Part shown: positions 14,526 through 29,264 of the stretch, one piece after another | How positions within the stretch are numbered: the first letter of the stretch is position 1 | Layout of the letters: every line of letters starts with the position of its first letter | Virus record (IMG/VR): IMGVR_UViG_3300027720_000023 | Span: 1 to 29,717 of that record | Origin: a virus | Reading direction: 5' to 3' (one strand) | DNA length: 29,717 bases | Notes under the pieces: generated by a model | Told to the model about the DNA's origin: nothing | The model's database searches: none | The model's input: the letters and a program-made list of their open reading frames with translations, nothing else | Made by a program: the position numbers and the translations under genes

Positions 14526-14529
14526 GCTT

Positions 14530-15184: not shown

Positions 15185-15210
15185 TAGTATTGTGTTTATT
15201 CACGAACATT

Positions 15211-15476: not shown

Positions 15477-15500
15477 ATGGAGAGAATACCAGGAGCACCT

Positions 15501-18625: not shown

Positions 18626-18683
18626 AGATATTCTTAAGGAAATACCATATTCATAGATATTGTGTTAGGATTACAAAACATAT

Positions 18684-18854
18684 ATGAAAACCCCTATGGA
18701 ATTAAGCACCGAAGAATGGAAAGAATTAGTGGCATTAAAAGAAGCAATTAATTATAATCCAGCATCAGTTCATCCAGAGAAGATGGAACTATTCACAGAA
18801 CTTCTTGTGAGGTCTTGGAGTGAAAAAACAGAAGTTATGACCTTTGATAAATAA
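18684..18854 (+). CDS. Small hypothetical protein
   Basis: 56 aa, MKTPMELSTEEWKELVALKEAI..., acidic and helical. Its last codons form the 5' arm of the terminator at 18839, so it must be the final gene of its transcript. No family recognised. Confidence 0.6.
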   Translation: MKTPMELSTEEWKELVALKEAINYNPASVHPEKMELFTELLVRSWSEKTEVMTFDK

Positions 18855-18868
18855 TCAAAGGTCTTTTT
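18839..18868 (+). terminator. Intrinsic terminator overlapping a stop codon
   Basis: Ten perfect pairs GACCTTTGAT/ATCAAAGGTC around AAATA, followed by five T. Confidence 0.85.
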
Positions 18869-18876
18869 GTATCTAA

Positions 18877-19566
18877 ATGATTTCGGAAGCAAGTAAGAGA
18901 GAAAAGATAGCAAATGCTGTTCTTGGTGCAACATTTGCATTAAGTGCGGCACAATCTCCTAAAGACTTTGTAAGAACAGGAAATATTGAAAGTCCTGGTA
19001 CTGCCCTAATGCAAACTTGGGGAAGAAGAAGAGGAGAAGCAGAAAGAAATCTAGATAGTGGTAGAGTTTCACATCCAGCAAGAAATAAAAAAATGAAGAA
19101 AACACTTAAAGAGTTTTTGGAAGAAGCATACCTTTACGAGATGCGTAAAGAAGATAAAGTCAAGGGGAAGCAAAAAACTCCTATGTATTTGGCAAGAACT
19201 TCGGGAAGTGTGAAAAAAACTCCAGAAGGTAAGTGGGAATTGGAGAAAATGAAACTTAAGAGACCTAATCCAGATGCGGTGATAGGAAGAAGGCGTCAAG
19301 GAATGACTGCTGCACCAGAACATTCTCCACATCCAGGATGGGGAAGTGAGAGAGAGCAACTTCGCAGACATGAGCACGGAGGTGGTGGAAGTGGTGCTAA
19401 AGATGGTAAACCAGGTGAAGGACGAGGAGTAAAGAGAACTCCAGGGGCAAAAAAAGAACGTGATTTTAACACTGATGGTCCAAGCCCACAAATGAAAGTA
19501 GGTTGGGCAAAATCAGCTAGAGCGAATAAAGGGAAGGATATTTTCAATAAAAAGACAACACTGTAA
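18877..19566 (+). CDS. Basic protein with internal capsid-targeting-like segment
   Basis: 229 aa, highly basic, rich in Gly, Lys and Arg. The first ~72 residues (MISEASKREKIANAVLGATF, SPGTALMQTWGRRRGEAERN) precede an internal Met (ATG 19093) that begins MKKTLKEFLEEAYLYEM. This resembles the T4 capsid-targeting peptide MKTYQEFIAEA and the starts of the genes at 19571, 20149, 20979 and 22738. Either the real start is 19093 or the signal is internal; the upstream part also looks coding. The C-terminal half is low-complexity (HEHGGGGSGAKDGKPGEGRG). Probable internal head protein packaged with DNA (inference). Confidence 0.6.
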   Translation: MISEASKREKIANAVLGATFALSAAQSPKDFVRTGNIESPGTALMQTWGRRRGEAERNLDSGRVSHPARNKKMKKTLKEFLEEAYLYEMRKEDKVKGKQKTPMYLARTSGSVKKTPEGKWELEKMKLKRPNPDAVIGRRRQGMTAAPEHSPHPGWGSEREQLRRHEHGGGGSGAKDGKPGEGRGVKRTPGAKKERDFNTDGPSPQMKVGWAKSARANKGKDIFNKKTTL

Positions 19567-19570
19567 TAAA

Positions 19571-20152
19571 ATGAAAACTTTTCAAAAGTTTATTGCTGAA
19601 GCACAAAGACATTTCTCAAGTAGAGCAGAACTTGAAAAACATTATGGAGGAGTTCCCGCAGGGATGGTTGCTAATAATGCAGCAAGTAGTGAAAATCCAA
19701 AATGGAGACTTGTAACAGCAGAAAATAGAAAAGGACAAGCACAAAGAAGAAATGAACGTATTGGTGCAGTTACTGGAGAGATATCAGGTAAACAAAAGAA
19801 ACAATCAGAAAAAAAAGAAACACTCGCAAAACAAAGAAGAAAAGAACTTCATCACGTTACTTCAACAGAAGAGTCTGATAAAATAAGACGTTCTATGTCT
19901 GCTAGTGAGTGGAAACAAAGAAAAAAAGATGATGCTAAAAAAGGCATCTATCACGGGCATCATCCAAGAAATTTAGCACTTGCAAATCCAACTCACGAAC
20001 CAACAACTAGTCCAGGACTTCATCATTCGGAGTATCACGCATTTGAAAGAAGGCAGAGAAGAAAACTTGCAGATGTATCAAACGCAATAAGCACACAAGA
20101 TGCTTATCGTATTCTAAATAATAAAAGGAAAAAGGAACAGAAGAATAAATGA
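19571..20152 (+). CDS. Predicted packaged internal protein, His-rich (possible nuclease-like)
   Basis: 193 aa. The N-terminus MKTFQKFIAEA is nearly the T4 capsid-targeting sequence of internal protein III (MKTYQEFIAEA), which is cut by the prohead protease after Glu. The remainder is very basic. Near residues 95-155 it has LHHVTS, GIYHGHHPRNLALAN and LHHSEYHAF, an arrangement of His and Asn that recalls HNH/His-Me nucleases. I cannot confirm the metal site. If both readings hold, it would be a nuclease ejected with the genome. The stop overlaps the next ATG. Confidence 0.65.
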   Translation: MKTFQKFIAEAQRHFSSRAELEKHYGGVPAGMVANNAASSENPKWRLVTAENRKGQAQRRNERIGAVTGEISGKQKKQSEKKETLAKQRRKELHHVTSTEESDKIRRSMSASEWKQRKKDDAKKGIYHGHHPRNLALANPTHEPTTSPGLHHSEYHAFERRQRRKLADVSNAISTQDAYRILNNKRKKEQKNK

Positions 20153-20979
20153 AAACCTTTCAAGAGTTTATTACCGAAGCAAAGAAGTGCTGGCCTGGTT
20201 ATAAGAAAAAAGGCACCAAAAAACTATTTGGAAAGACATATAATAATTGTGTAAAAGAAGAAGTTGAATTGGAAGAAAGTTCTACTGGTGAAAGAAGTAG
20301 AGGACGAGCTACTTTAGGTCGTGCTGGAAATAAGATGGACCGAGGAGAAAGGTCTGTTGCTGCAATTGCAAAGAAAGCAGGATTGAAAGGAACTGGTAAG
20401 TATTCCACTAAAGATTTGAGAACGAGAGCAAGAGATTATACAACATATGATAGTGATGATGATATGGATGATGCTGGAAGCACGGAACAAGACCATTTCA
20501 TTCGCACATATTCATCAGCAAGAAAAGCAGCAAAAGGTGAACGTTTGATTAGTAAGGTAAAACCAGCAGGAAGAAATGCATCTGGTATGACTAAACTCAA
20601 AACTGCACCTTCAAGTGAAAGTGTGAGAAGAGTTAAAGATTTGAGAAAGCAGATGGTCAAATCAGGTGCTTCTAAAACTGGAAAAGTTCATACTGTAGAT
20701 ATTATGCATCGTGATAGTGATGTTGGTAAAGGTGATAGAAACCAACAGATGGAAAGGGGTAGAAACTTTATTCAAGCAGTTAAAGATACTCCAAAACAAT
20801 TGAAGAAAGCAGGAGCAAAGAAAGGTGATACTGTAATTGGAAAACCAACAGCAGTTATGCCTGGTGAAGATAAGAAAACTGGTGAAGAAAAGAGAGGAAA
20901 ACTTTATAAAAAGATTTTTGGTAAGAAATCTACCAAAGCAAGTCCCAAAACAGGATTAATGGTAGGAAAAGTAGATTAA
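20149..20979 (+). CDS. Predicted packaged internal protein (capsid-targeting N-terminus)
   Basis: 276 aa with MKTFQEFITEA at the N-terminus, then KKCWPGYKKKGTKKLFGKTYNNC, a Cys/Lys motif I have seen in other cyanophage proteins. The body is basic and Ser/Arg-rich (TGERSRGRATLGRAGNKMDRG) with one acidic patch (YDSDDDMDDAGSTEQDH). This composition fits a DNA-associated head protein cut after ITE. ATGA overlap upstream, TAATG overlap downstream, so it is coupled to the next capsid-signal protein. Confidence 0.7.
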   Translation: MKTFQEFITEAKKCWPGYKKKGTKKLFGKTYNNCVKEEVELEESSTGERSRGRATLGRAGNKMDRGERSVAAIAKKAGLKGTGKYSTKDLRTRARDYTTYDSDDDMDDAGSTEQDHFIRTYSSARKAAKGERLISKVKPAGRNASGMTKLKTAPSSESVRRVKDLRKQMVKSGASKTGKVHTVDIMHRDSDVGKGDRNQQMERGRNFIQAVKDTPKQLKKAGAKKGDTVIGKPTAVMPGEDKKTGEEKRGKLYKKIFGKKSTKASPKTGLMVGKVD

Positions 20980-21278
20980 TGAAAACATTTAAACAGTTTT
21001 TATATGAGGCATCTACAACACAGAGATTGAAAATTGCAACAGCAAAGTTAATTGCAAAAAATCCAAAGAATTCTGTATATAAAACTCTATTGGATAGAAT
21101 TAAGGAAAGGCAAGCACCACTATATCCAGATTATCCAGGAAGAGAATCTGCTAGAAAAGATAAGACCTTAATTCCATCTGGAGGAACATCAAGTTTTCCT
21201 GAACTTGAAGGAATATCTACAAGAACTAAAAACCCCAAGAAGTTAAGAAAGCAGAAAGCACTTGGTGAGATATTATAA
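20979..21278 (+). CDS. Predicted packaged internal protein, small
   Basis: 99 aa, MKTFKQFLYEA start (capsid-targeting type, cut after YE expected). The rest is lysine-rich (IATAKLIAKNPKNSVYKTLL, KNPKKLRKQKALGEIL). No domain recognised. Its ATG shares a base with the upstream stop. Confidence 0.65.
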   Translation: MKTFKQFLYEASTTQRLKIATAKLIAKNPKNSVYKTLLDRIKERQAPLYPDYPGRESARKDKTLIPSGGTSSFPELEGISTRTKNPKKLRKQKALGEIL

Positions 21279-21294
21279 ATATATAAATAAATAC
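21274..21294 (+). promoter_or_regulatory. Overlapping late promoters (two TATAAATA boxes)
   Basis: TATAAATA occurs at 21274-21281 and again at 21282-21289, both perfect matches to the T4 late consensus, with a third AATAAATA-like stretch behind. It overlaps the upstream stop. The leader CAAAACGACTTGTAAAG before the ATG at 21311 resembles that of the gene at 22738. Confidence 0.8.
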
Positions 21295-21310
21295 AAAACG
21301 ACTTGTAAAG

Positions 21311-22225
21311 ATGAACTCACAAGACATTCAAAATCTTCAAGAATCATATTTGGCAGTATATGATGACGAAACAAGAGAAAATCTAGAATTTGAAAATTGG
21401 GTAAATAACCTACTTGATGAAGGTTATGATTTGAGTTCTTATACTTGGGACGAAATGGCTAAGATTTATATTGATGAGGCAAGAGCAGAAGGTGTAAGAC
21501 CTTATAAAGCAGGACCAACTCAAGCAGAAGTTAGAGCAGACGCAAAAAAATCAGAAAAAGCAAAAAAAGATAAAGATAAAGATAAAGAAGGTTATGGTCC
21601 TGAAGACAAATTTAAGAGTGATTGGAAGCTAAGAGCAGTACCCTCTTCAACAAGTAAGAGAAAAGATGGGACTGAGGAAACTGTTTCTCAAAGAATGAAT
21701 AGAGAAGCTCCATATAAAACAAGACCATTCTCTCCATTATTCACAAAACAGGGAAGTCGCACTGCTTCTGCTGTAACTAGAGCAACTGAAGGACCAGGTG
21801 AACCCCAATCAGTTACAATGCCTAGAAAGAAGTCAAAACCATCAAAGAAAATCGTCCGCAGGGGCAATCAAAATGAAGCATATGACCTCTATGATGTAAT
21901 CCTTTCGCACCTTATTGATGAAGGATATGCTGATACTTATGAATCAGCAGAAGCAATTATGGTGAATATGAGTGAAGAGTGGAGAGAGAGTATTGTTGAA
22001 GATTTTCCAAATGTATTAAATTTTCCAAGCCAGGGGGGATCTAGATCTGGAGATGCTGGCACCAGGGGATTAAAAATGATACAAACGCCAGGTGGACAAC
22101 GTGGATATATCAATAAACATAGTGGTGGTGAAATATTACCATCAGGAACTGTTAACAAAATTATGGGCGGAAACTTAATGGTGAAGAACGGCACCAAGAA
22201 AAATACTAATTCTAATATTGCATAA
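21311..22225 (+). CDS. Late protein with LDEGY-type helical motifs
   Basis: 304 aa, MNSQDIQNLQESYLAVYDDE..., a start common in cyanophage head-associated proteins. LLDEGYDLSSYTWDEM (~53-68) is followed by a Lys/Asp-rich linker (KKSEKAKKDKDKDKEG). Near residues 192-232 lies YDLYDVILSHLIDEGYADT..IMVNMSEEWRESIVE, a module shared with the gene at 24825. The tail is Gly-rich and contains GQRGYINKHSGGE. It has its own late promoter at 21274. It may be another packaged or assembly protein. No enzyme motif is seen. Confidence 0.7.
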   Translation: MNSQDIQNLQESYLAVYDDETRENLEFENWVNNLLDEGYDLSSYTWDEMAKIYIDEARAEGVRPYKAGPTQAEVRADAKKSEKAKKDKDKDKEGYGPEDKFKSDWKLRAVPSSTSKRKDGTEETVSQRMNREAPYKTRPFSPLFTKQGSRTASAVTRATEGPGEPQSVTMPRKKSKPSKKIVRRGNQNEAYDLYDVILSHLIDEGYADTYESAEAIMVNMSEEWRESIVEDFPNVLNFPSQGGSRSGDAGTRGLKMIQTPGGQRGYINKHSGGEILPSGTVNKIMGGNLMVKNGTKKNTNSNIA

Positions 22226-22236
22226 GAAGTTTAAGA

Positions 22237-22291
22237 CCACTTTCCAAACTGTCCCAAGACCCCACCAAGGGGTCTTTTTTTATGCTATGAT
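22237..22291 (+). promoter_or_regulatory. Dyad-box/extended -10 promoter
   Basis: CCACTT-TCCA-AACTGT at 22237-22252, centre 22244.5, then TGC-TATGAT with the hexamer at 22286-22291: exactly 41.5 bp. The terminator at 22256 lies between box and -10. No -35. Confidence 0.65.
22256..22280 (+). terminator. Intrinsic terminator inside a promoter unit
   Basis: AAGACCCC/GGGGTCTT stem, loop ACCAA, then T run. It ends transcription of the gene at 21311 just before the next promoter's -10. Confidence 0.9.
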
Positions 22292-22311
22292 ACTGGAAAT
22301 CAAAGAAACCT

Positions 22312-22719
22312 ATGGAACTCACAATCGTTGCTTACAAACTTGAAGATGGACTGTGGGCATTTGACCACCCCCATAACAATACAGTTCAAGAACTACTCCT
22401 AAACGGAACTGAAGAAGCAATTGACGAACACTTTTATTTTGGAACTGGACGACACGCAGTTGAAAAGGACCAAATGGAAATCATTTTGAATACAGAAGAA
22501 CCTGATGATTATGATACTCTGCTTGTAAAAGAAGTTGGTGATGATGATGGAACGACTTATACTGATACAACACTTTGTGCTCCTGTGTGGTTGTGTCCTT
22601 GGCTTCAAGGATACTTTGGTGAAGTTCCAGAAGAAATCTTTGTAAAGGTTCGTCCTATCAATCAAGGACTTGAAGGATTTGTAAATAGGACAGGTATGCG
22701 AGGTCTTTTGAATAAATAA
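22312..22719 (+). CDS. Conserved phage protein (DUF6717-like)
   Basis: 135 aa, MELTIVAYKLEDGLWAFDHPHNNTVQELLLNGTEEAID.... The start and order of motifs (LWxFD, VQE, DEHFYF) resemble a small family I remember as DUF6717 in cyanophages; the match is from memory. Acidic (DDDGTTYTDT), lacking the basic nature of its neighbours, and under its own promoter (22237), so it is probably an early or middle gene inserted in the late group. Ends 19 bp before the gene at 22738. Confidence 0.65.
   Translation: MELTIVAYKLEDGLWAFDHPHNNTVQELLLNGTEEAIDEHFYFGTGRHAVEKDQMEIILNTEEPDDYDTLLVKEVGDDDGTTYTDTTLCAPVWLCPWLQGYFGEVPEEIFVKVRPINQGLEGFVNRTGMRGLLNK
22711..22718 (+). promoter_or_regulatory. Late-promoter-like box (AATAAATA)
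   Basis: AATAAATA overlaps the stop of the gene at 22312. It is followed by ACAAAAGTAGTTGTAAGATG, close to the leader at 21292-21313, supporting a shared late signal for the capsid-signal protein at 22738. Confidence 0.55.
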
Positions 22720-22737
22720 TACAAAAGTAGTTGTAAG

Positions 22738-23328
22738 ATGAAGACATATAAACAGTTTATAACCGAGGCACGAGAAACATATTTGGATGTTTATGAAGGT
22801 AAAGTGCCTTGGAATGACTCAAAATATCCTTTACAAAGTGGGCATACTCCAGCAGAAAAAAATAAAGCAAAAAGAGCAAGAACTGGTGTAGAAGATCCAA
22901 ACAAACCCCAGATGGATATAAGTGATAGAGATATGGCTAGATACAGTGGAATGAAGGAAGTTGATGATACTGAAACCTCTAATGCTCCCAAACAAAAGAA
23001 AACTTTATTGGGTAAAAAGAAACCATTAGAACACAAAACACCTCCTCACGAGTTTAAAAAAGATAGAAGATTAGATACAACAAGAACTGATAATCAATAT
23101 GGTATGAGTCAATCTGCCAAAGGTGGTGGAGGAAATGCTACTAGGGGTCAAGCAAGAAGATACGTAGGAGGAAAGTTTAAAGGCAATGCAGATTGGGCAG
23201 ATAGTAATATCTTTCCATCCCCAATAGAACAAGGTGATACAAGAAGAAGAACTCCTAAAAAATGGGGAGGTCCAAATCCCAAAGAACTAACAAAAAGTCA
23301 TCCAATTGTTAGAAAAACACGCAAATAA
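22738..23328 (+). CDS. Predicted packaged internal protein (capsid-targeting N-terminus)
   Basis: 196 aa, MKTYKQFITEARETYLDVYEG.... MKTYKQFITEA differs from the T4 peptide MKTYQEFIAEA at only three positions. The remainder is basic and Gly/Arg/Lys-rich (GGGGNATRGQARRYVGGKFKG, DTRRRTPKKWGGPNPK), without recognised domains. It likely enters the head as a scaffold-associated protein and is trimmed after ITE. Expressed from the late box at 22711. Confidence 0.7.
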   Translation: MKTYKQFITEARETYLDVYEGKVPWNDSKYPLQSGHTPAEKNKAKRARTGVEDPNKPQMDISDRDMARYSGMKEVDDTETSNAPKQKKTLLGKKKPLEHKTPPHEFKKDRRLDTTRTDNQYGMSQSAKGGGGNATRGQARRYVGGKFKGNADWADSNIFPSPIEQGDTRRRTPKKWGGPNPKELTKSHPIVRKTRK

Positions 23329-23334
23329 TCAGGA

Positions 23335-23389
23335 CCACTTCCCAAACTGGCACAAAGTCCTCCCCAAGCACCCCAATCCGTGTTATGAT
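23335..23389 (+). promoter_or_regulatory. Dyad-box/extended -10 promoter, best copy
   Basis: CCACTT-CCCA-AACTGG (23335-23350), centre 23342.5; TATGAT at 23384-23389 preceded by TGT. Spacing 41.5 bp. The start region has the perfect dyad ATTAC-TAG-GTAAT. No -35 hexamer at the expected place. Confidence 0.7.
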
Positions 23390-23417
23390 TACTAGGTAAT
23401 CAAATGAATGGGGCACG

Positions 23418-23648
23418 ATGGAAGTTCTTGAGATTAGCACCTCTGGTGCGATTGCTAAACTTTCTTTTAATGACGAAGACAACACTGTTGGTGTTGCCTA
23501 CACTTACAAACCTGATAAATTTTATATCTTCAAGTGTGATAGTATTGAAGGTTTCAAAGGCAAACTTCGCAACACCTTTAATGCTGGTGAAAGTGTTGGT
23601 AAGATGATTTCTCAAATGAAGAAAGATGGTGTCCTTGTGACTGTCTAA
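23418..23648 (+). CDS. KTSC-domain-like small protein
   Basis: 76 aa, MEVLEISTSGAIAKLSFNDEDNTVGV..., with YKPDKFYIFKC and GESVGKMISQM near the end. Ser/Gly near residues 8-10, the F/Y-x-F/Y core and the final helix fit KTSC-type small domains found in phages; role unknown. ATG 23418 is chosen because the domain starts there. Another ATG at 23404 opens a different frame (67 codons) that looks spurious. A short leader (~22 nt) separates it from the promoter. Confidence 0.65.
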   Translation: MEVLEISTSGAIAKLSFNDEDNTVGVAYTYKPDKFYIFKCDSIEGFKGKLRNTFNAGESVGKMISQMKKDGVLVTV

Positions 23649-23663
23649 ATCTTTATTTTTTCT

Positions 23664-23738
23664 GCTCGTTTGGCCCTCTGGTGAAGGCGATCTGCTCATA
23701 ACAGATAGAAGGCGAAGGTTCGATCCCCGCAACGAGCA
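23664..23738 (+). tRNA. tRNA-Met-like (CAT), imperfect T-stem
   Basis: Acceptor GCTCGTT/AACGAGC, anticodon stem ATCTG-CTCATAA-CAGAT. The T-arm GAAGG-TTCGATC-CCCGC has two mismatches. Elongator Met or lysidine-type Ile2 cannot be told apart. It follows the gene at 23418 by 15 bp. Confidence 0.7.
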
Positions 23739-23741
23739 CTC

Positions 23742-23818
23742 GCCGTGGTTCAAAACTTTAGATAAGAGCAGTGGGGCACTTATCAAAAAGATTTGATTTG
23801 GATTCACAACCACACGGC
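23742..23818 (+). other. Structured intergenic element, tRNA-sized
   Basis: GCCGTGGTT (23742-23750) can pair with AACCACACGGC (23808-23818), leaving a two-base bulge. Inside, GATAAG pairs with CTTATC (23761-23784). Size and outer stem recall a decayed tRNA, but no proper anticodon arm is found. Confidence 0.35.
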
Positions 23819-23822
23819 ACTC

Positions 23823-23851
23823 TTGACTATTGTGATTCTTTGAGTTATGAT
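23823..23851 (+). promoter_or_regulatory. Sigma-70 promoter (TTGACT-17-TATGAT)
   Basis: TTGACT (23823-23828), 17-bp spacer, TATGAT (23846-23851), 12 bp before tRNA-Leu(TAA). Could also serve the Dam gene. Confidence 0.6.
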
Positions 23852-23863
23852 AGTCTTATACAC

Positions 23864-23936
23864 GGGCGTGTAGTCCAGCGGCAGAGACAGGGCGCTTAAA
23901 ACGCCTCCAGGGTCGGTTCGAATCCGACCACGCCTA
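23864..23936 (+). tRNA. tRNA-Leu (TAA anticodon) with short variable loop
   Basis: Acceptor GGGCGTG/CACGCCT (first pair G-U), anticodon loop CTTAAAA, T-arm GTCGG-TTCGAAT-CCGAC, A73. The variable region is only CCAGG (5 nt), whereas bacterial Leu tRNAs have a long arm. Confidence 0.8.
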
Positions 23937-23958
23937 TTATATAATACTTGAAAGTTAT

Positions 23959-24798
23959 ATGAAACAGTTCCCATTAAAGACGGCCTTGAGATATCCCGGA
24001 GGTAAGAGCAAAGCACTCAAAACACTTGCTCCTTGGTTTCCTAGTGATTTCAAAGAGTTTCGTGAACCCTTCTTGGGTGGTGGAAGTATTTCTTTAATGG
24101 TTTCGCAGAACTACCCAAAAGTTCCTATCTGGGTGAATGATAAGTATTATTACTTGTATAACTTTTGGGTTCAACTTCGTGATAATGGACAAGTTCTCAA
24201 AGATAAATTAAGAGCAATCAAAGAAAAAGTTCTTAATGACGACAACGCACACCGAGAACTCTTTGATGATTACTCTCACACGATTGGTAATCTTGAACCA
24301 TTAGAACAAGCAGTTGCGTTCTTTGTAATGAATAAGTGTTCTTATTCTGGTCTTACAGAGAACTCAACATTTTCAGTTCAAGCATCACGGTCCAACTTCT
24401 CATTAGTTGGTATTGATAAACTTCCACGATATTCTTATATCATCAAGGACTGGAAGATTACTAATATTGATTATGAAGAAGTGATGAACGCAGAGGGTGA
24501 TGATGTGTTTGTATTTCTTGACCCACCTTATGATATTAAGGATTTCCTTTATGGAACTGGTAGAAAACTTCACTCATCATTCTCACACGAAAGATTTGCT
24601 GATGATGTGGATAAATGCCCTCATCGTTTTATGATTACTTACAATCTTAATGATTGGATTACAAATCGTTATAAGGAGTATAATATAGATGAATGGAAGT
24701 TGAGGTATTCTATGGTTCATCGTGGTGAGAAAGGAACACAAGATAATGTGAAAACCGAATTGCTGATTACGAATTATAAACTTGATACAGTTTTATAA
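23959..24798 (+). CDS. dam: DNA adenine methyltransferase (Dam/D12 class)
   Basis: 279 aa. AdoMet motif I FREPFLGGGS (34-43) and catalytic motif IV DPPY (188-191) identify a D12-class N6-adenine methyltransferase, as in T4 Dam and E. coli Dam. The N-terminal TALRYPGGKSKAL is also typical. It would methylate adenine in a short duplex site (GATC is likely by family, but not proven). It could shield phage DNA from restriction or mark it for packaging. It follows tRNA-Leu by 22 bp, and its stop overlaps the late box at 24794. The downstream gene is unrelated, so this is a lone methylase with no cognate nuclease adjacent. Confidence 0.9.
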   Translation: MKQFPLKTALRYPGGKSKALKTLAPWFPSDFKEFREPFLGGGSISLMVSQNYPKVPIWVNDKYYYLYNFWVQLRDNGQVLKDKLRAIKEKVLNDDNAHRELFDDYSHTIGNLEPLEQAVAFFVMNKCSYSGLTENSTFSVQASRSNFSLVGIDKLPRYSYIIKDWKITNIDYEEVMNAEGDDVFVFLDPPYDIKDFLYGTGRKLHSSFSHERFADDVDKCPHRFMITYNLNDWITNRYKEYNIDEWKLRYSMVHRGEKGTQDNVKTELLITNYKLDTVL

Positions 24799-24801
24799 AT
24801 A
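24794..24801 (+). promoter_or_regulatory. T4-type late promoter (TATAAATA)
   Basis: Perfect late octamer overlapping the dam stop codon, 23 bp before the ATG at 24825. Confidence 0.75.
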
Positions 24802-24824
24802 CTTTGATAGAACTGTAAAAGCAA

Positions 24825-25832
24825 ATGAATTATAGGGACTTACAAAACATTTCAAATCTCTCTCAACAAATCTTAGTTGAGGGAGCAAATGAAGAGCACA
24901 ACGTGCTGAACCGTTGGCCTTATACTTCTCCTTATCTTCAAGAATCAACTGAACTTGATGAAGGTGCTGCAGGAGATGTTGCTGCCCGAGCACAAAAACT
25001 TGCCAATCAAAAAAAGGGGCAAACTCCTGAAAGAAAAGAAATGTATCAAGACCTTGCTTATAATGCAAGAGCAAGACAAAGAACACAAGATAATCCAGGA
25101 GACTTGGTGGGTGCTTCAAGATTTGAAAGGTCCAAGGCATACGGCCCTCAAATAACTCCAGCTAGCTCACAAAGAGCAAGTGAAACAGAAACGATTGGTG
25201 GTGGTACTTATGTAAGAGGATCAAAAAGAAAACCAAAAGGTAAGAAATATAAAAGGCAAGTACAATCAGGAGTTCGTGCCGCAAGTTCCCAAGAAAAGAA
25301 AAGATTGGGTGTAGGTGAAAGTTATGACCTCTACGACATCATTCTCTCACATCTCCTTGATGAAGGTTATGCTGAAACACAAGAACAAGCAGAAGTCATT
25401 ATGGTGAATATGAGTGAAGATTGGAGAGAGAGTATTTTTGAAGCAGAAGTTCTCGCACAAAAAGGTGGTGTTCCTGGGACAGTTCAAATGAATAAAACAA
25501 GAGAAGGTGGATTTTTAGGAATTGGAAGCAAAGAAGTTAGCAAACCAGTCCCTGGGTCTTTTAAAGAAAAAGATGTATCAAGCAAAGATGCTGCTAGGTA
25601 TAATACTGGAATAGATAAGAAATTCGGTAGTGCCGATAATATTGATAATACTTCTGCTGCTAATGTTCAATACGCAGCAAATCGTGCTGGTCATAGTGGA
25701 TATATGAAAGTCAAAGACCCAGGGTCACTTCCAAATACTGGTATTCCAAATAGACCAACCCCAGGAAGAGCATCAGACCAAAATCAAGCTAGACAAATGT
25801 CAGGTGATATTGTTCGTATGAACCGTAGATAA
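24825..25832 (+). CDS. Late protein sharing the DLYD..DEGYA module
   Basis: 335 aa, MNYRDLQNISNLSQQILVEG..., with ILVEGANEE and SPYLQESTELDEGAAGDV near the N-terminus; VEG and LQES-type sequences could be prohead-protease sites (weak). Residues ~166-205 hold YDLYDIILSHLLDEGYAETQEQ and IMVNMSEDWRESIFE, nearly the same as in the gene at 21311. Basic tracts (SKRKPKGKKYKRQ) and a Gly/Asn-rich tail follow. No enzyme motif. Probably another head-associated or packaged protein, expressed late from the box at 24794. Confidence 0.7.
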   Translation: MNYRDLQNISNLSQQILVEGANEEHNVLNRWPYTSPYLQESTELDEGAAGDVAARAQKLANQKKGQTPERKEMYQDLAYNARARQRTQDNPGDLVGASRFERSKAYGPQITPASSQRASETETIGGGTYVRGSKRKPKGKKYKRQVQSGVRAASSQEKKRLGVGESYDLYDIILSHLLDEGYAETQEQAEVIMVNMSEDWRESIFEAEVLAQKGGVPGTVQMNKTREGGFLGIGSKEVSKPVPGSFKEKDVSSKDAARYNTGIDKKFGSADNIDNTSAANVQYAANRAGHSGYMKVKDPGSLPNTGIPNRPTPGRASDQNQARQMSGDIVRMNRR

Positions 25833-25833
25833 T

Positions 25834-25862
25834 TTGACAAAACTCTAAAAAACTGGTATATA
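25834..25862 (+). promoter_or_regulatory. Strong sigma-70 promoter (TTGACA-17-TGG-TATATA)
   Basis: TTGACA at 25834-25839, 17-bp spacer ending in TGG, TATATA at 25857-25862 (extended -10). It serves the small gene at 25884. Confidence 0.75.
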
Positions 25863-25883
25863 TAATATACACAAGAACAAACA

Positions 25884-25982
25884 ATGACTAATCTCCATTC
25901 ACAACCTAAGAGTGATTATCCGATGAACCGCTGGTTTATTGGAGAGACCCTCTTGGTTGCGAATATGATAAGTCAAAGTTAA
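25884..25982 (+). CDS. Very small hypothetical protein
   Basis: 32 aa, MTNLHSQPKSDYPMNRWFIG..., between a strong promoter (25834) and a strong terminator (26006). It may be a true micro-ORF (a host-takeover peptide is possible) or a leader inside a ~130-nt RNA. Codon content alone cannot decide. Confidence 0.45.
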   Translation: MTNLHSQPKSDYPMNRWFIGETLLVANMISQS

Positions 25983-26005
25983 AAGACAAATCATAAAAAG
26001 CAACG

Positions 26006-26041
26006 AAGAGGGAGAATCCAAAAGATTCACCCTCTTTTTTT
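26006..26041 (+). terminator. Intrinsic terminator
   Basis: AAGAGGGAGAATC/GATTCACCCTCTT around CAAAA with one mismatch, then seven T. Ends the unit that begins at 25834. Confidence 0.85.
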
Positions 26042-26052
26042 ATGGTCTTGTG

Positions 26053-26107
26053 CCACTTGTGCTACTGGTCGTATCATTTGCCGTTGGGGGGCAACCTCTG
26101 GTATATT
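26053..26107 (+). promoter_or_regulatory. Dyad-box promoter 1 of the tRNA array
   Basis: CCACTT-GTGC-TACTGG at 26053-26068 (centre 26060.5), then TGG-TATATT with the hexamer at 26102-26107: spacing 41.5 bp, as in the promoters at 12895, 22237 and 23335. Confidence 0.6.
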
Positions 26108-26147
26108 ACATGAGTCGGTGGGGGAACGAGACCCCAAATGCCCAGGA

Positions 26148-26201
26148 CCACTTCTGGAACTGGCACACTAAAAGAGCACGGACCTCAAAACGTGGTATTC
26201 T
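26148..26201 (+). promoter_or_regulatory. Dyad-box promoter 2 of the tRNA array
   Basis: CCACTT-CTGG-AACTGG at 26148-26163 (centre 26155.5); TGG-TATTCT with the hexamer at 26196-26201, spacing 40.5 bp. The -10 is poor but the box is one of the best. It lies about 50 bp before tRNA-Lys. Confidence 0.5.
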
Positions 26202-26250
26202 TAAAGGGTGGTTGAGAGACCACCAGCACCTTGAAAATTTAACCTTTTAT

Positions 26251-26322
26251 GGGTCTGTAACTCAATGGTAGAGTAACGGGCTTTTAACCTGGAAGTTGTG
26301 AGTTCGAGCCTCACCGGACCCA
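26251..26322 (+). tRNA. tRNA-Lys (TTT)
   Basis: Acceptor GGGTCTG/CGGACCC, loop CTTTTAA, T-arm GTGAG-TTCGAGC-CTCAC, A73. First tRNA of the main array. The anticodon stem has one mismatch at its outer end. Confidence 0.92.
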
Positions 26323-26353
26323 TAGACCTAGAAAGTCATTAAACTTATCTAAT

Positions 26354-26435
26354 GGGAGAGTGCCCGAGTGGTTAATGGGAACGGTCTGTAAAATCGTCGG
26401 CTCTGCCTTCACAAGTTCAAATCTTGTCTCTCCCA
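26354..26435 (+). tRNA. tRNA-Tyr (GTA)
   Basis: Acceptor GGGAGAG/CTCTCCC, anticodon arm ACGGT-CTGTAAA-ATCGT, long variable arm (class II, as usual for bacterial Tyr), T-arm ACAAG-TTCAAAT-CTTGT. Confidence 0.93.
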
Positions 26436-26439
26436 CCTT

Positions 26440-26511
26440 GACTCTATAATGAAGTGGTTATCATACTTCTCTGTCTAAGAAGAATCACGAGTTCGAATCT
26501 CGTTAGAGTCG
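26440..26511 (+). tRNA. tRNA-Asp (GTC)
   Basis: Acceptor GACTCTA/TAGAGTC, anticodon arm CTTCT-CTGTCTA-AGAAG, T-arm ACGAG-TTCGAAT-CTCGT, G73 as expected for Asp. Confidence 0.93.
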
Positions 26512-26515
26512 TCGT

Positions 26516-26587
26516 GTTCCTGTCGTCTAATGGTTAGGACGATGCCCTTTCAAGGCATAAACGAGGGTTCAAATCCCTTCAGGAATA
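26516..26587 (+). tRNA. tRNA-Glu (TTC)
   Basis: Acceptor GTTCCTG/CAGGAAT (first pair G-U), anticodon arm ATGCC-CTTTCAA-GGCAT, T-arm GAGGG-TTCAAAT-CCCTT. Confidence 0.92.
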
Positions 26588-26590
26588 CTT

Positions 26591-26664
26591 GGGAACATAG
26601 CTCCAATTGGTAGAGCACTTGTTTGAAGAACAAGGTGTTATCGGTTCAAATCCGATTGTTCCCA
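26591..26664 (+). tRNA. tRNA-Phe (GAA)
   Basis: Acceptor GGGAACA/TGTTCCC, anticodon arm CTTGT-TTGAAGA-ACAAG, T-arm ATCGG-TTCAAAT-CCGAT, A73. Confidence 0.93.
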
Positions 26665-26668
26665 CCTT

Positions 26669-26741
26669 GGAAACATAGCTTAGTTGGTAAAGCATTCGAC
26701 TGATAATCGAAAGACCACTGGTTCAAGTCCAGTTGTTTCCA
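26669..26741 (+). tRNA. tRNA-Ile (GAT)
   Basis: Acceptor GGAAACA/TGTTTCC, anticodon arm TTCGA-CTGATAA-TCGAA, T-arm ACTGG-TTCAAGT-CCAGT, A73. Confidence 0.93.
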
Positions 26742-26744
26742 CTT

Positions 26745-26760
26745 GTTGCCTTCGGGCAAC
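26745..26760 (+). other. UUCG-tetraloop hairpin between tRNAs
   Basis: GTTGCC-TTCG-GGCAAC, a very stable hairpin with no T-tract after it. Probably a processing or stability element of the polycistronic tRNA transcript. Confidence 0.6.
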
Positions 26761-26793
26761 ATAAAACCCTTATGGGTTGCTTCAAGACAACAT

Positions 26794-26881
26794 AGAAAGG
26801 TGACCGAGAGGCTTAAGGTAGAAGTTTGCTAAACTTCCGAGGGGAAAAACCCCTCCGAGGGTTCGAATCCCTCCCTTTCTG
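26794..26881 (+). tRNA. tRNA-Ser (GCT)
   Basis: Acceptor AGAAAGG/CCTTTCT, anticodon arm GAAGT-TTGCTAA-ACTTC, long variable arm with GAGGGG/CCCCTC, G73. Class II as expected. Confidence 0.93.
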
Positions 26882-26883
26882 CT

Positions 26884-26955
26884 GGCAGTATAGCTGAGTG
26901 GTAAAGCACATCATTCATACCGATGCGACCGTGGGTTCAAATCCCACTACTGCCT
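26884..26955 (+). tRNA. tRNA-Met (CAT), elongator-like
   Basis: Acceptor GGCAGTA/TACTGCC fully paired, anticodon loop TTCATAC, anticodon stem with an A-C mismatch next to the loop, T-arm GTGGG-TTCAAAT-CCCAC. Discriminator T is unusual for Met. Ile2 is an alternative. Confidence 0.85.
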
Positions 26956-26956
26956 T

Positions 26957-27028
26957 GTGTCGTTAGTCTAGTGGTTAAGACATCTGTTTGTGGAACAGAG
27001 GAGATGAGTTCAATTCTCATACGACACC
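26957..27028 (+). tRNA. tRNA-His (GTG)
   Basis: Acceptor GTGTCGT/ACGACAC, anticodon arm TCTGT-TTGTGGA-ACAGA, T-arm ATGAG-TTCAATT-CTCAT, C73 as in bacterial His. The -1 base encoded here is T, not the usual G. Confidence 0.92.
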
Positions 27029-27030
27029 CC

Positions 27031-27102
27031 GCCCTTATAGCTCAGTGGTAGAGCAACTCACTAGTAATGAGTAGGTCGCTAGTTCAAATCTAGTTGAGGG
27101 CT
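27031..27102 (+). tRNA. tRNA-Thr (AGT)
   Basis: Acceptor GCCCTTA/TGAGGGC, anticodon arm ACTCA-CTAGTAA-TGAGT, T-arm CTAGT-TTCAAAT-CTAGT-like with G-T changes, T73. Anticodon AGT (A34) is rare in bacteria, where Thr is read by TGT or GGT. Confidence 0.85.
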
Positions 27103-27127
27103 TTGTCGGAAGTAATTAATCCGACAA
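27103..27127 (+). other. Perfect 8-bp hairpin after tRNA-Thr
   Basis: TTGTCGGA/TCCGACAA with a 9-nt loop. It overlaps the next structured element by two bases, so the two could be alternative folds. Confidence 0.6.
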
Positions 27128-27175
27128 CGTGAAATAGTTGGTAGCTCCAACACTATGTTGAATAGGTTTCACGTT
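27126..27175 (+). ncRNA. Candidate three-way-junction RNA in tRNA array
   Basis: Nine-base outer stem AACGTGAAA/TTTCACGTT encloses two hairpins, GTTGG-TAGCT-CCAAC and CTAT-GTTGA-ATAG. About 50 nt, not a tRNA. T4 carries stable RNAs C and D of unknown role in its tRNA cluster; this could be an analogue. A mere spacer is the alternative. Confidence 0.55.
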
Positions 27176-27178
27176 AAT

Positions 27179-27252
27179 GTCTAGGTGGCAGAGTGGTCGA
27201 ATGCGGAAGTCTGCAAAACTTCTTATCGTGGGTTCAAATCCCACCCTAGACT
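27179..27252 (+). tRNA. tRNA-Cys (GCA)
   Basis: Acceptor GTCTAGG/CCTAGAC, anticodon arm GAAGT-CTGCAAA-ACTTC, T-arm GTGGG-TTCAAAT-CCCAC, T73, the Cys identity base. Confidence 0.93.
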
Positions 27253-27278
27253 CTTGGTTCTTTATGAATCATATTTAA

Positions 27279-27352
27279 TGAGAAATCGTCTAATGGTAGG
27301 ACACCTCCCTTTGAAGGAGTCTATCTAGGTTCGAGTCCTAGTTTCTCAGCCA
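27279..27352 (+). tRNA. tRNA-Gln (TTG), CCA encoded
   Basis: Acceptor TGAGAAA/TTTCTCA with weak first pair T-A and G73, both typical for Gln. Loop CTTTGAA, T-arm CTAGG-TTCGAGT-CCTAG. The final CCA (27350-27352) is encoded and directly abuts tRNA-Leu. Confidence 0.92.
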
Positions 27353-27426
27353 GCCCGATTGATGGAATTGGTATACATACTTGTCTTAGAAACAAGGTTT
27401 TACAGGTTCGAGTCCTGTATCGGGCA
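27353..27426 (+). tRNA. tRNA-Leu (TAG) with short variable loop
   Basis: Acceptor GCCCGAT/ATCGGGC, Leu-like D-arm (GGAATTGGTATAC), anticodon arm CTTGT-CTTAGAA-ACAAG, variable loop only GTTTT, T-arm ACAGG-TTCGAGT-CCTGT, A73. The long variable arm expected for Leu is missing. There is no spacer from tRNA-Gln. Confidence 0.9.
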
Positions 27427-27430
27427 CCTT

Positions 27431-27502
27431 GTTGGGTTGGTGCAATTGGTAGCATCTTGGTCTCCAAAATCAAAGATTAGAGTTCAAGTCTCTAACCCTT
27501 CG
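27431..27502 (+). tRNA. tRNA-Trp (CCA)
   Basis: Anticodon arm TTGGT-CTCCAAA-ATCAA, T-arm TAGAG-TTCAAGT-CTCTA, G73. The acceptor GTTGGGT/ACCCTTC has two adjacent T-T mismatches (pairs 2 and 3), which may lower charging or mark decay. Confidence 0.82.
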
Positions 27503-27506
27503 CCTT

Positions 27507-27580
27507 GTCCTTTTAGCTCAGTGGATTAGAGCAGTAGGCTACGAACCTATGTGTCGGGAGTTCGAATCTCTCAAAGGACG
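27507..27580 (+). tRNA. tRNA-Arg (ACG)
   Basis: Acceptor GTCCTTT/AAAGGAC, anticodon arm GTAGG-CTACGAA-CCTAT, T-arm GGGAG-TTCGAAT-CTCTC, G73. A34 is normally turned to inosine by host TadA. Confidence 0.93.
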
Positions 27581-27582
27581 CT

Positions 27583-27602
27583 TGACTTTCCTTAGAAAGT
27601 CA
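27583..27602 (+). other. Perfect hairpin between tRNAs
   Basis: TGACTTTC-CTTA-GAAAGTCA, no T run after it; likely a processing element. Confidence 0.5.
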
Positions 27603-27619
27603 TATATACTATTGATAGA

Positions 27620-27665
27620 GGTTAAGTCCCTGTTATATCCTTATGAGGTATATCACACTTAATCC
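27620..27665 (+). other. Nested stem-loop before tRNA-Met
   Basis: GGTTAAGT can pair with ACTTAATCC (one bulged A), enclosing ATATCC with GGTATAT. Similar in size to the element at 27126; less perfect. Confidence 0.35.
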
Positions 27666-27670
27666 ATCAT

Positions 27671-27745
27671 CGCAGGGTAGTCAAGTGGTAAGACGCTAGG
27701 CTCATAACCTAGAGATCGTGGGTTCAATTCCCACCCCTGCTCCCA
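27671..27745 (+). tRNA. tRNA-Met, initiator-like (CAT), CCA encoded
   Basis: CGCAGGG/CCCTGCT leaves pair 1-72 open (C-T), resembling the C1-A72 mismatch of bacterial initiator tRNA. Anticodon arm CTAGG-CTCATAA-CCTAG lacks the three G-C pairs of initiators. T-arm GTGGG-TTCAATT-CCCAC. CCA at 27743-27745. Confidence 0.87.
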
Positions 27746-27774
27746 ATAACACACAAACATACAGGAGTAAAAGA

Positions 27775-27975
27775 ATGACACCTTACGAACTACGATTTGA
27801 GATTTTTAAGCAAGCATATTGTATGCTACAAGATAATTATTGCAACCGTCTTGAAGTAGAACGCAGTAAAAATTCAGATCTAGCACTACCAGCAGATTTT
27901 GATGGTACTTATCCAAGTTTAGATCAGGTTTTGGTACAAGCAGAAATCATTAATGACTTTGTAAGTTCTAAATGA
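27775..27975 (+). CDS. Conserved small phage protein in tRNA array
   Basis: 66 aa from ATG 27775: MTPYELRFEIFKQAYCMLQDNY.... The start is set by aggag at 27763; an upstream in-frame ATG lies inside the tRNA and is rejected. Similar MTPYELRFEIFKQA starts are familiar from T4-like cyanophages (from memory). Likely helical; ends DQVLVQAEIINDFVSSK. Function unknown. Its place between tRNAs suggests expression on the same long transcript. Confidence 0.75.
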   Translation: MTPYELRFEIFKQAYCMLQDNYCNRLEVERSKNSDLALPADFDGTYPSLDQVLVQAEIINDFVSSK

Positions 27976-27981
27976 TAAAGT

Positions 27982-27997
27982 AGGGTGGCAACACCCT
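27982..27997 (+). other. GNRA-tetraloop hairpin
   Basis: AGGGTG-GCAA-CACCCT directly after the small gene at 27775. Stable, lacks a T run, so a processing or 3'-end-protecting element is more likely than a terminator. Confidence 0.55.
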
Positions 27998-28006
27998 TAT
28001 GTGAAT

Positions 28007-28091
28007 GGAAGGTTGACCGAGTGGTTTATGGTGATAGTCTTGAAAACTATTGAGGGTAAAACCTCCCAGAGTTCGAATCTCTGACCTTCCT
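28007..28091 (+). tRNA. tRNA-Ser (TGA)
   Basis: Acceptor GGAAGGT/ACCTTCC, anticodon arm ATAGT-CTTGAAA-ACTAT, long variable arm (GAGGG/CCTCC-type), T-arm CAGAG-TTCGAAT-CTCTG. Discriminator T differs from the usual G for Ser. Confidence 0.92.
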
Positions 28092-28093
28092 TA

Positions 28094-28111
28094 GAAGGAT
28101 GCGAAACCTTC
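28094..28111 (+). other. Small hairpin after tRNA-Ser
   Basis: GAAGG/CCTTC with an 8-nt loop. Its arms resemble the acceptor of the preceding tRNA-Ser, so competition in folding is possible. Confidence 0.35.
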
Positions 28112-28125
28112 CACTCTCACAAAAT

Positions 28126-28200
28126 GCGAAATTAATTCAGCGGTAGAATGTCTGCCTTCCAAGCAGAACGTCAGGAGTTCGAATCTCCTATTTCGCTCCA
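28126..28200 (+). tRNA. tRNA-Gly (TCC), CCA encoded
   Basis: Acceptor GCGAAAT/ATTTCGC, anticodon arm TCTGC-CTTCCAA-GCAGA, T-arm AGGAG-TTCGAAT-CTCCT, T73, CCA 28198-28200 directly followed by tRNA-Val. Confidence 0.93.
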
Positions 28201-28273
28201 GGGAAATTAGCTCAGTGGTAGCAGCGTCTGCTTTACACGCAGAAAGTCCACAGTTCGAATCTGTGATTTCCCA
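28201..28273 (+). tRNA. tRNA-Val (TAC)
   Basis: Acceptor GGGAAAT/ATTTCCC, anticodon arm TCTGC-TTTACAC-GCAGA, T-arm CACAG-TTCGAAT-CTGTG, A73. No spacer from tRNA-Gly. Confidence 0.93.
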
Positions 28274-28310
28274 TTAGCAATCATATGATTGTTATAATTA
28301 CCAGGAGTAA

Positions 28311-28372
28311 GTCAGCGGTAGACGGCACCGTTTGGGGCGGTGAAGACGTTGGTTCGATCCCAACCTTCTGGA
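28311..28372 (+). tRNA. tRNA-Pro (TGG)
   Basis: Acceptor CCAGGAG/CTTCTGG, anticodon arm CACCG-TTTGGGG-CGGTG, T-arm GTTGG-TTCGATC-CCAAC, A73. The D-arm is compact. A TATAAT at 28293-28298 just upstream might be a weak internal promoter, but no -35 is seen. Confidence 0.88.
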
Positions 28373-28378
28373 TTGGAG

Positions 28379-28386
28379 AATAAATA
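28379..28386 (+). promoter_or_regulatory. Late-promoter-like box (AATAAATA)
   Basis: Lies 27 bp before the ATG at 28413; the leader ctacattatt matches those at 1896 and 9285, supporting a shared late leader. Confidence 0.55.
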
Positions 28387-28412
28387 TCTCCAAAATCTAC
28401 ATTATTCTTTTT

Positions 28413-28568
28413 ATGTCTCTTATTTCACAACAAGACCGAGAACTTGCTATTGAAGCATTGGATTTCTATCTCTTCAGTAAAGGTAACGACTTCACTGAAG
28501 CAAAGAGAGCAGAAGTAAATGCTCTTCTTAATTGGATTAAAATTGAGAAATCTAAGCATGAACATTAA
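28413..28568 (+). CDS. Small hypothetical protein
   Basis: 51 aa, MSLISQQDRELAIEALDFYLF..., probably two helices; ends IKIEKSKHEH. Preceded by a late box and by the same leader as the oxygenase-like genes. Overlaps the next gene by 11 bp. No family recognised. Confidence 0.65.
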   Translation: MSLISQQDRELAIEALDFYLFSKGNDFTEAKRAEVNALLNWIKIEKSKHEH

Positions 28569-28725
28569 ACTCTGGTATTGCGATTCAATGAAACAATGGC
28601 GTTGGACATTAACAGATTGTTCTCGTCCAATCATCAAACAAGAATCAGGACAACAACCAGATTTGAGAGATGCTATGAATGATGTAGCAACAACAGTTGA
28701 GTTTATGTTAGACCATAAACTTTAA
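28558..28725 (+). CDS. Conserved small phage protein
   Basis: 55 aa from ATG 28558: MNIKLWYCDSMKQWRWTLTD..., then QQPDLRDAMNDVATTVEFML. Closely related short proteins occur in T4-like cyanophages as I recall; the function is unknown. The start is supported by overlap coupling with the upstream gene; codons further upstream belong to that gene's other frame. Confidence 0.72.
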   Translation: MNIKLWYCDSMKQWRWTLTDCSRPIIKQESGQQPDLRDAMNDVATTVEFMLDHKL

Positions 28726-28735
28726 ACTTTTATAT

Positions 28736-28807
28736 TCCCCTGTAGTTCAGTGGTAGAACTCAAAACTGTTAATTTTGCTGTCTCTGGTTCGAATCCAGAC
28801 GGGGGAG
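28736..28807 (+). tRNA. tRNA-Asn (GTT)
   Basis: Acceptor TCCCCTG/CGGGGGA, anticodon arm CAAAA-CTGTTAA-TTTTG, T-arm TCTGG-TTCGAAT-CCAGA, G73 as expected. Confidence 0.93.
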
Positions 28808-28827
28808 TTGAAGTCTTAAGACTTCAA
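28808..28827 (+). other. 20-bp perfect palindrome
   Basis: TTGAAGTCTT/AAGACTTCAA between tRNA-Asn and tRNA-Met. RNA hairpin or protein-binding site; no T run. Confidence 0.5.
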
Positions 28828-28831
28828 ATAA

Positions 28832-28905
28832 CGCAGACGAGTGTAAAGGTAGCACAATAGGCTCATAACCTATAGGACGGAGTTCAATTCTCTGGTCTGC
28901 CACCA
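28832..28905 (+). tRNA. tRNA-Met, initiator-like (CAT), CCA encoded
   Basis: CGCAGAC/GTCTGCC leaves pair 1-72 open (C-C). Anticodon arm ATAGG-CTCATAA-CCTAT, T-arm CGGAG-TTCAATT-CTCTG, A73 and CCA at 28903-28905. Fourth CAT tRNA of the window; one of the four may be Ile2. Confidence 0.87.
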
Positions 28906-28910
28906 AATAA

Positions 28911-28981
28911 GGGGGATTAGTTAAACGGTATAACGGGTGCTTTGCAAGCACTTATTAACAGTTCGATTCTGTTATTCTCCA
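28911..28981 (+). tRNA. tRNA-Ala (TGC)
   Basis: Acceptor GGGGGAT/ATTCTCC carries the G3-U70 pair that defines Ala identity, with A73. Anticodon arm GGTGC-TTTGCAA-GCACT, T-arm AACAG-TTCGATT-CTGTT. It abuts the tmRNA. Confidence 0.93.
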
Positions 28982-28983
28982 TT

Positions 28984-29205
28984 GTCCAAGAGGGTGAGAA
29001 GTCTAATGTTTCGGACGGGGTTTCGATTACCCCCATCTCCATTACTCGGGGATGCCAGGTTTCGACGGAGCATAAAGGTCTTATCTGTTGACGGGACAAG
29101 TCCATAAACGCAAACAACATTGTTGCTTTCTCTCGTCAAACAGTTTCTGTTTGAACTAAACGAGTGAGGGGGTTATAAGTTTCCTTCTTACCCAAAACTT
29201 ATATT
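28984..29205 (+). ncRNA. ssrA: Circularly permuted (two-piece) tmRNA
   Basis: The gene is in inverted order. First comes the acceptor piece (about 28984-29041): T-arm GGGGT-TTCGATT-ACCCC (29017-29033), then acceptor strand CATCTCC and A73 (29041). After a 6-base spacer (TTACTC) comes the coding piece from 29048: GGGGATG, which pairs with CATCTCC, then AGGTTTCGACGG, the conserved tmRNA D-region. The tag frame starts at GCA 29110 and codes ANNIVAFSRQTVSV, stop TGA 29152-29154. A 9-bp stem (TATAAGTTT/AAACTTATA, 29174-29203) with a GGGG/CCC contact suggests a pseudoknot. The tag resembles cyanobacterial tags (ANNIV.FSRQ) but ends VSV rather than PVAA. The permuted form is known in alpha-proteobacteria, some beta-proteobacteria and marine cyanobacteria. 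Confidence 0.92.
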
Positions 29206-29207
29206 GG

Positions 29208-29234
29208 GGGACACTTGAGAAAGTGTCCCTTTTT
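29208..29234 (+). terminator. Intrinsic terminator of tmRNA/tRNA array
   Basis: GGGACACTT/AAGTGTCCC around GAG(A), then five T. The same sequence forms the GACAC...AAAGTGTCC dyad that lies 40.5 bp before the next -10. Confidence 0.85.
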
Positions 29235-29264
29235 ATGCCACTGGGCACTGAGAGGTGCTATGAT
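29210..29264 (+). promoter_or_regulatory. Dyad-box/extended -10 promoter, GACAC variant
   Basis: GACAC (29210) / GTGTC (29227), centre 29218.5; TGC-TATGAT with the hexamer at 29259-29264, spacing 40.5 bp. The leader ATTACTAGATAAACA resembles those at 23388 and 12948. Confidence 0.5.

Follow-up and report, generated by a model that had tools for sequence, protein, structure and literature searches.

Two-piece tmRNA genes of a large cyanophage clade encode tags with a conserved valine end in place of Ala-Ala

Across a large clade of cyanophages, the tag encoded by a two-piece tmRNA gene ends in a C-terminal valine in place of the Ala-Ala found in the tags of picocyanobacterial hosts. The gene was analyzed in an IMG/VR virus record of 29,717 bases (hereafter the window), in which the DNA was read directly for the positions of all elements, and its relatives were collected from viral and cyanobacterial sequences. 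The conservation of this end suggests that the cyanophage clade rescues stalled ribosomes yet alters the fate of the tagged proteins. Phage tmRNAs and a mycobacteriophage tag are already known from the available portions of PMC4131195 and PMC9004378 and from GenBank notes; in the literature searched, as far as its accessible text goes, we found no paper on Val-ending phage tags and no earlier description of a clade-wide conserved Val end in cyanophages.

A permuted tmRNA gene at the end of a tRNA array

Positions 28992-29234 of the window form a circularly permuted (two-piece) tmRNA gene of the cyanobacterial type, as identified by both ARAGORN and Rfam (Table 1). ARAGORN places a permuted tmRNA at 28952-29245 with the tag ANNIVAFSRQTVSV followed by a stop, and the gene is matched by the Rfam families cyano_tmRNA (RF01851; 111.7 bits, E 1e-29, cut-off 70) and tmRNA_permuted (RF04321; 81 bits, cut-off 47). 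Both pieces are present in permuted order, the acceptor stem GGGGATG/CATCTCC has seven pairs including G3-U70, the alanine identity pair for alanyl-tRNA synthetase, the T-loop is canonical, and the tag frame is complete with conserved tag start and stop, running from the Ala resume codon GCA at 29110 through a last codon GTT to the stop TGA at 29152-29154. By analogy with the permuted family, the TTACTC spacer is expected to be cut out in processing, and the hairpin with its T-run is likely the 3' end of the tmRNA and a terminator too. Gene order, two-piece design, the acceptor stem with G3-U70, the 3' hairpin and the tag start (ANNIV/ANKIV.F.R) are all shared with the cyanobacterial permuted tmRNA (RF01851; RF04321), whose tag however ends Val-Ala-Ala-stop, whereas that of the window ends Val-stop and is phage-encoded within a tRNA array.

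Table 1. Features of the tmRNA gene and the adjoining tRNA array (window coordinates)
Feature	Position	Strand	Basis
tRNA array directly upstream of tmRNA	26250..28981	+	ARAGORN
Acceptor (3') piece of permuted tmRNA	28992..29041	+	RF04321/RF01851 alignments, sequence
T-arm, GGGGT TTCGATT ACCCC	29017-29033	+	5/5 T-stem pairs
Acceptor 3' strand CATCTCC	29034-29040	+	7/7 acceptor pairs
Discriminator A	29041	+	sequence
Intervening segment TTACTC	29042..29047	+	between both acceptor-stem strands
Coding (5') piece	29048..29234	+	sequence, Rfam; 3' end approximate, from hairpin and T-run
Acceptor 5' strand GGGGATG, G3 opposite U70	29048-29054	+	sequence
D-loop region	29055-29069	+	sequence
Tag reading frame ANNIVAFSRQTVSV and stop, Val-stop in place of Ala-Ala-stop	29110..29154	+	ARAGORN, sequence
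Hairpin round tag end	29131..29165	+	inner stem 29136-29142/29148-29154, outer stem 29131-29135/29161-29165
Strong hairpin (29206-29231), then T-run	29206..29234	+	fold, sequence

The preliminary description had reported a tag lacking the Ala-Ala end at 29110-29154, and this was borne out, with ARAGORN and direct reading giving identical coordinates. A sequencing error, named there as a possible source of the unusual end, is excluded because the same 45-nt tag frame is present in three other IMG/VR contigs (L002, L003, L004), and in two of them (L002 and L004) it lies behind a different tRNA-like half. The pairing of one tag module with different tRNA-like halves, seen between window 28992-29154 and L002/L004 and also between L308 and L300, suggests that tag modules are exchanged between tRNA-like halves within the tmRNA gene.

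The tmRNA gene stands at the end of an array of 25 tRNA genes called by ARAGORN (window 14436-28981), which covers all 20 amino acids; an extra tRNA at 28832-28902 was reported by cmscan only. PHROGs matches in the window include CobS-like, peptidase-like and 2OG-oxygenase families, and megablast ties the window to Synechococcus phages best through CobS. Three long repeat-built proteins with the motifs NSNYGWFGGG and VDRIDFSND are encoded at 14-1885, 3349-5271 and 7022-9274.

All 64 Val-ending genes of our collection show a 7-pair acceptor stem (a count favoured by the search itself, since the script takes the best-scoring stem), G3-U70 and five T-stem pairs, the paired sequences coming in several versions, and RF04321 scored above its cut-off in 17/17 contigs tested, with one match each. 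Judged by its sequence, the phage tmRNA gene thus looks functional. In 17 of the 64 genes (L002 2640-2810, L011, L014, L018, L048 and others) the T-loop reads GGCAGTA instead of TTCGATT; in 16 of these the D-loop region is altered as well (AGAATCGACTG), L315 being the one with the canonical form, and the acceptor stem with G3-U70 is intact throughout. Possibly these odd T-loops represent a new form of the tmRNA elbow, or the loss of EF-Tu/SmpB contacts.

The odd T-loops would fit a decoy or dominant-negative tmRNA that titrates SmpB or competes with the host tmRNA and whose tag hardly matters, and there is precedent in phage DS6A, for which a tmRNA consisting of the tRNA-like domain only was reported, a similar molecule being inhibitory to tmRNA (available text of PMC4131195, PMC11915505). 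However, the window gene has a canonical T-loop and a full reading frame with conserved tag start and stop, where the DS6A type has no tag reading frame, and we regard a decoy as decidedly improbable.

Valine ends in cyanophages and alanine ends in their hosts

Viral contigs were searched with three patterns, the first of which required R-Q within the tag, whereas the other two were blind to the tag end. The second pattern, built on the leader that precedes the tag plus the initial tag codons, yielded 53 rows including the window, 51 of which end in Val (47 LV, 4 SV) and two in AA. The third, built on the N-terminal tag start, returned 74 contigs; leaving aside six rows that were not tmRNA-like and one cut at a contig end, 60 of the 67 scored tags end in Val (53 LV, 4 TV, 3 SV), six in AA and one in CA. 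The Val-ending tags are 14-16 residues long, stop with TGA or TAG, and differ in their bodies (FSRQTALV, FSRQTVSV, FTRQPVLV, FSRSKSTALV, FSRTSVPSLV, FTRTAQTV, FSRSKVATLV). In total, 64 Val-ending contigs, including the window and three with AV ends, were grouped by DNA identity, giving 39 groups at the 95% level and 13 at 80%. The three AV-ending cyanophage tmRNAs (L005, L054, L015; SAPVAV, QAVAV) lie outside the LV clade. Photosystem reaction-centre genes were present in 8 of 20 contigs, which marks them as cyanophages, where such genes are expected. The Val tag end is kept across a large cyanophage clade.

Host genomes were scanned with the same motif, one genome per species, giving at least 120 loci, six of which were not tags. 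Among the matches listed, 109 of the 114 candidate host tags end in AA and none in Val, the other five having variant Ala endings (VFA, VLA, AVA); an AA-stop motif was found in 125 of 151 genomes of the WH7803 family. The Val-stop pattern occurred in three of 400 host-family genomes, and in only one of them, G408, does it belong to a real tag (ANKIVSFSRQTAPVAV; G408:C1:389010-389060, L378), which ends VAV and is a host exception counting against the reading favoured below. The host tags that the preliminary description gave as ending PVAA were checked, picocyanobacterial tags being ANKIVSFSRQTAPVAA, ANNIVRFSRQAAPVAA and similar sequences, and the difference it had drawn is real and clade-conserved: hosts carry Ala-Ala and the phage clade does not. 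In WH7803 (L379, G027:C1:862500-863150) we also noted a second tmRNA coding part with an intact tag that is not called by ARAGORN, probably a fragment that an integrating element left behind.

Host tag end TALVAA (L116) and phage TALV differ by the last two codons only, as might be expected if the phage gene were a decaying copy picked up from a host whose degron was lost by chance. This origin is disfavoured, to the point of being extremely improbable, by an end conserved over 39 DNA groups and by the intact stems. In addition, in a tree of the tRNA-like half and tag start (142 rows; bootstrap support rough, many forks open and recombination within the gene likely), the 71 picocyanobacterial rows form one clade and every phage row lies outside it. 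A recent capture from a sampled host is likewise unsupported by this tree, given its rough support.

Loss of AA is not a general habit of phages. When IMG/VR was scanned with a generic tmRNA pattern, at least 80 loci were obtained, 56 of them with ARAGORN calls (57 calls); among the matches listed, and with some contigs possibly being host DNA or prophage edges, 50 of the 57 calls end in AA and none in Val. When isolate phages were searched by blastn with the window gene, AG-345-P14 was the only match (75.9% over 52%), and no Val end was found in the isolate and single-cell cyanophage tmRNA regions that were fetched, which read ...SLVAAL in S-CRM01 (L357), ...STVAA in S-CAM1 (L359) and S-CAM3 (L360), ...ELATA in Sf-FS3 (L358), ...DELVTA in S-SSM7 (L361) and ...QLATA in AG-345-P14. 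The tmRNA genes of S-CRM01, Sf-FS3, S-CAM1, S-CAM3 and S-SSM7 are not annotated as such in their records. Since the cyanophage tmRNAs of S-CAM1, S-CAM3 and L007 keep AA, this end is compatible with phage life. In another cyanophage contig (L017, 11162-12669) an AA-ending tmRNA lies directly upstream of psbA.

Permuted tmRNAs like that of the window are known from marine phages (Melnitz, Mosig, AG-345-P14), and 53 of 133 unique phage tmRNA structures were two-piece according to the accessible part of PMC9004378; the AG-345-P14 tag, ending LATA, nevertheless differs from the Val end of the window. A Leu-Val end without AA does occur in the C1 mycobacteriophages (Bixzunavirus), whose tmRNA is likewise phage-encoded beside tRNAs: the tag of Wally is ATDTDATVTDAEIEAFFAEEAAALV (...AAALV), and 195 records match its tmRNA, a few in part only. 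Unlike that of the window, the Bixzunavirus tmRNA is one-piece by ARAGORN, has an unrelated tag body and belongs to phages of another host phylum. If a shared purpose exists, the Leu-Val ends of Bixzunavirus and cyanophage tags are convergent.

Conservation of the tag end as peptide and as RNA

Codon changes were counted on a tree relating 35 distinct tag modules, a set selected for a Val end. The last codon changed five times, always synonymously (GTT/GTC/GTA/GTG; 0, 0 and 5 changes at codon positions 1-3), the lack of residue changes being in part a consequence of how the set was selected. When this selection was lifted, 63 of 68 tags ended in Val, the remaining five in AA and none in anything else. 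In the 35 modules the second-last codon changed nine times, three times altering the residue, residues -3 and -4 changed six and five times, and the bases downstream of the tag three to 11 times each. Selection for nothing but loss of degradation should let the end drift, and no such drift is seen, which counts against simple loss.

In some subgroups the Val codon is part of a stem, so RNA structure may account for some of the constraint on it. The tag-end hairpin of the window has a folding energy of -9.4 kcal/mol (z -2.33). In the TGA subgroup (13 relatives) the proportion of pairing cells is 94.2%, compared with 15-41% in slid controls, and the covariation score was matched by 3 of 500 shuffles, with just one pair changing on both sides; the PSLV subgroup also has a stable hairpin at the tag end. 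These hairpins favour an explanation in which the tag end is set by the stem round the stop codon together with gene shortening and the peptide end is a by-product. However, in the STALV/TAG subgroup folding at the tag end is no more stable than in shuffled sequences (z -0.40), yet the end still reads LV, and differing contexts all end in Val. RNA structure alone thus does not explain the tag end, and we consider such an account quite improbable.

Expected fate of tagged proteins

Ala-Ala-COO- is the main determinant by which ClpXP recognizes ssrA, and KM rises when either of the two final Ala residues is changed (portion of PMC7652416 available). The window tag lacks this C-terminal element, ending Ser-Val, and the clade ends LV, SV or TV. 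On the host side, the residues that contact ssrA in E. coli ClpX (Y153, V154, T199, V202, R228, H230) are identical in the ClpX of 7/7 picocyanobacterial genomes with a ClpX match, an eighth genome (G072) having no full ClpX match. The engineered ssrA variants AAV and ASV resemble the phage tags in their C-terminal Val and undergo slower, ClpXP-dependent degradation: in Salmonella they were degraded more slowly and by ClpXP only (PMC11003136, in part), and tag strength in Synechocystis decreased from LVA through AAV to ASV, the weakest of the three (PMC3446811, in part). These variants are synthetic reporters without an LV end, whereas the phage clade is mostly LV; the SV end of the window is closest to ASV. 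The retained ClpX contact residues together with the behaviour of ASV and AAV lead us to expect attenuation, not full escape. The suggestion of the preliminary description that tagged proteins may escape ClpXP therefore agrees with the published ClpX data and the host contact residues in its direction, but escape is too strong a word, because Val-ending variants are still degraded by ClpXP, if slowly. What it had overlooked is that Ala-Ala has not just disappeared: the tags retain Val at the C-terminus, in most cases preceded by Leu, and this speaks for a signal under maintenance or for a degradation rate fixed at a given level.

We lean, with modest confidence, towards a two-piece phage tmRNA that rescues ribosomes and whose conserved Val tag end makes the products poor ClpXP substrates. 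This explanation builds on the observed gene anatomy, the conservation of the end, the absence of AA, the contrast with the hosts and the ClpX contact residues. The phage tmRNA would be transcribed in infected cells and cut into two pieces by host processing enzymes, and the tmRNA of phage Wildcat, its most expressed lytic gene, illustrates that phage tmRNAs can be highly expressed (PMC7474061, accessible text). Charging would be performed by the host alanyl-tRNA synthetase. No smpB was found in 16/16 contigs and no ClpP in 17/17 contigs (many of them fragments, three of about 247 kb), so that a phage-borne partner of either kind was set aside for the contigs searched, most of which are fragments, and the partners, including SmpB, would be those of the host. 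Stalled ribosomes would be freed during infection, when broken messages are expected to be frequent, and the tag would be written with the conserved C-terminal Val (usually Leu-Val, Ser-Val in the window) replacing Val-Ala-Ala. Tagged peptides would then be degraded more slowly as poor ClpXP substrates; rescue would be retained and proteolysis lowered to a maintained level, not merely lost, presumably to the benefit of the phage.

The (Leu-)Val end could instead be a positive signal that directs tagged proteins to a different protease or adaptor of the host, or to a different fate. The terminal Val is indeed kept while its surroundings change, and an ALV end is also found in the unrelated Bixzunavirus mycobacteriophage tmRNAs; the receptor or protease is hypothetical, however, the contigs searched encode no ClpP, and slow degradation by ClpXP could by itself retain Val, which makes re-addressing unlikely in our view. 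More broadly, we offer only tentatively, as a somewhat unlikely idea, that in trans-translation (Leu-)Val serves as a fate signal specific to phages, which evolved independently in cyanophages and mycobacteriophages and acts through a slow ClpXP rate or a different receptor. Under this idea the virus would commandeer ribosome rescue and redefine what becomes of the rescued proteins.

At stake is whether lytic phages carry tmRNA for ribosome rescue or for feeding proteolysis. In a clade that retains the anatomy for rescue but carries another conserved end in place of the degron, the two functions are naturally separated, and the two tag ends, being comparable in one host, make this question testable. 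Its recurrence in unrelated mycobacteriophages would turn the altered tag end into a general viral strategy.
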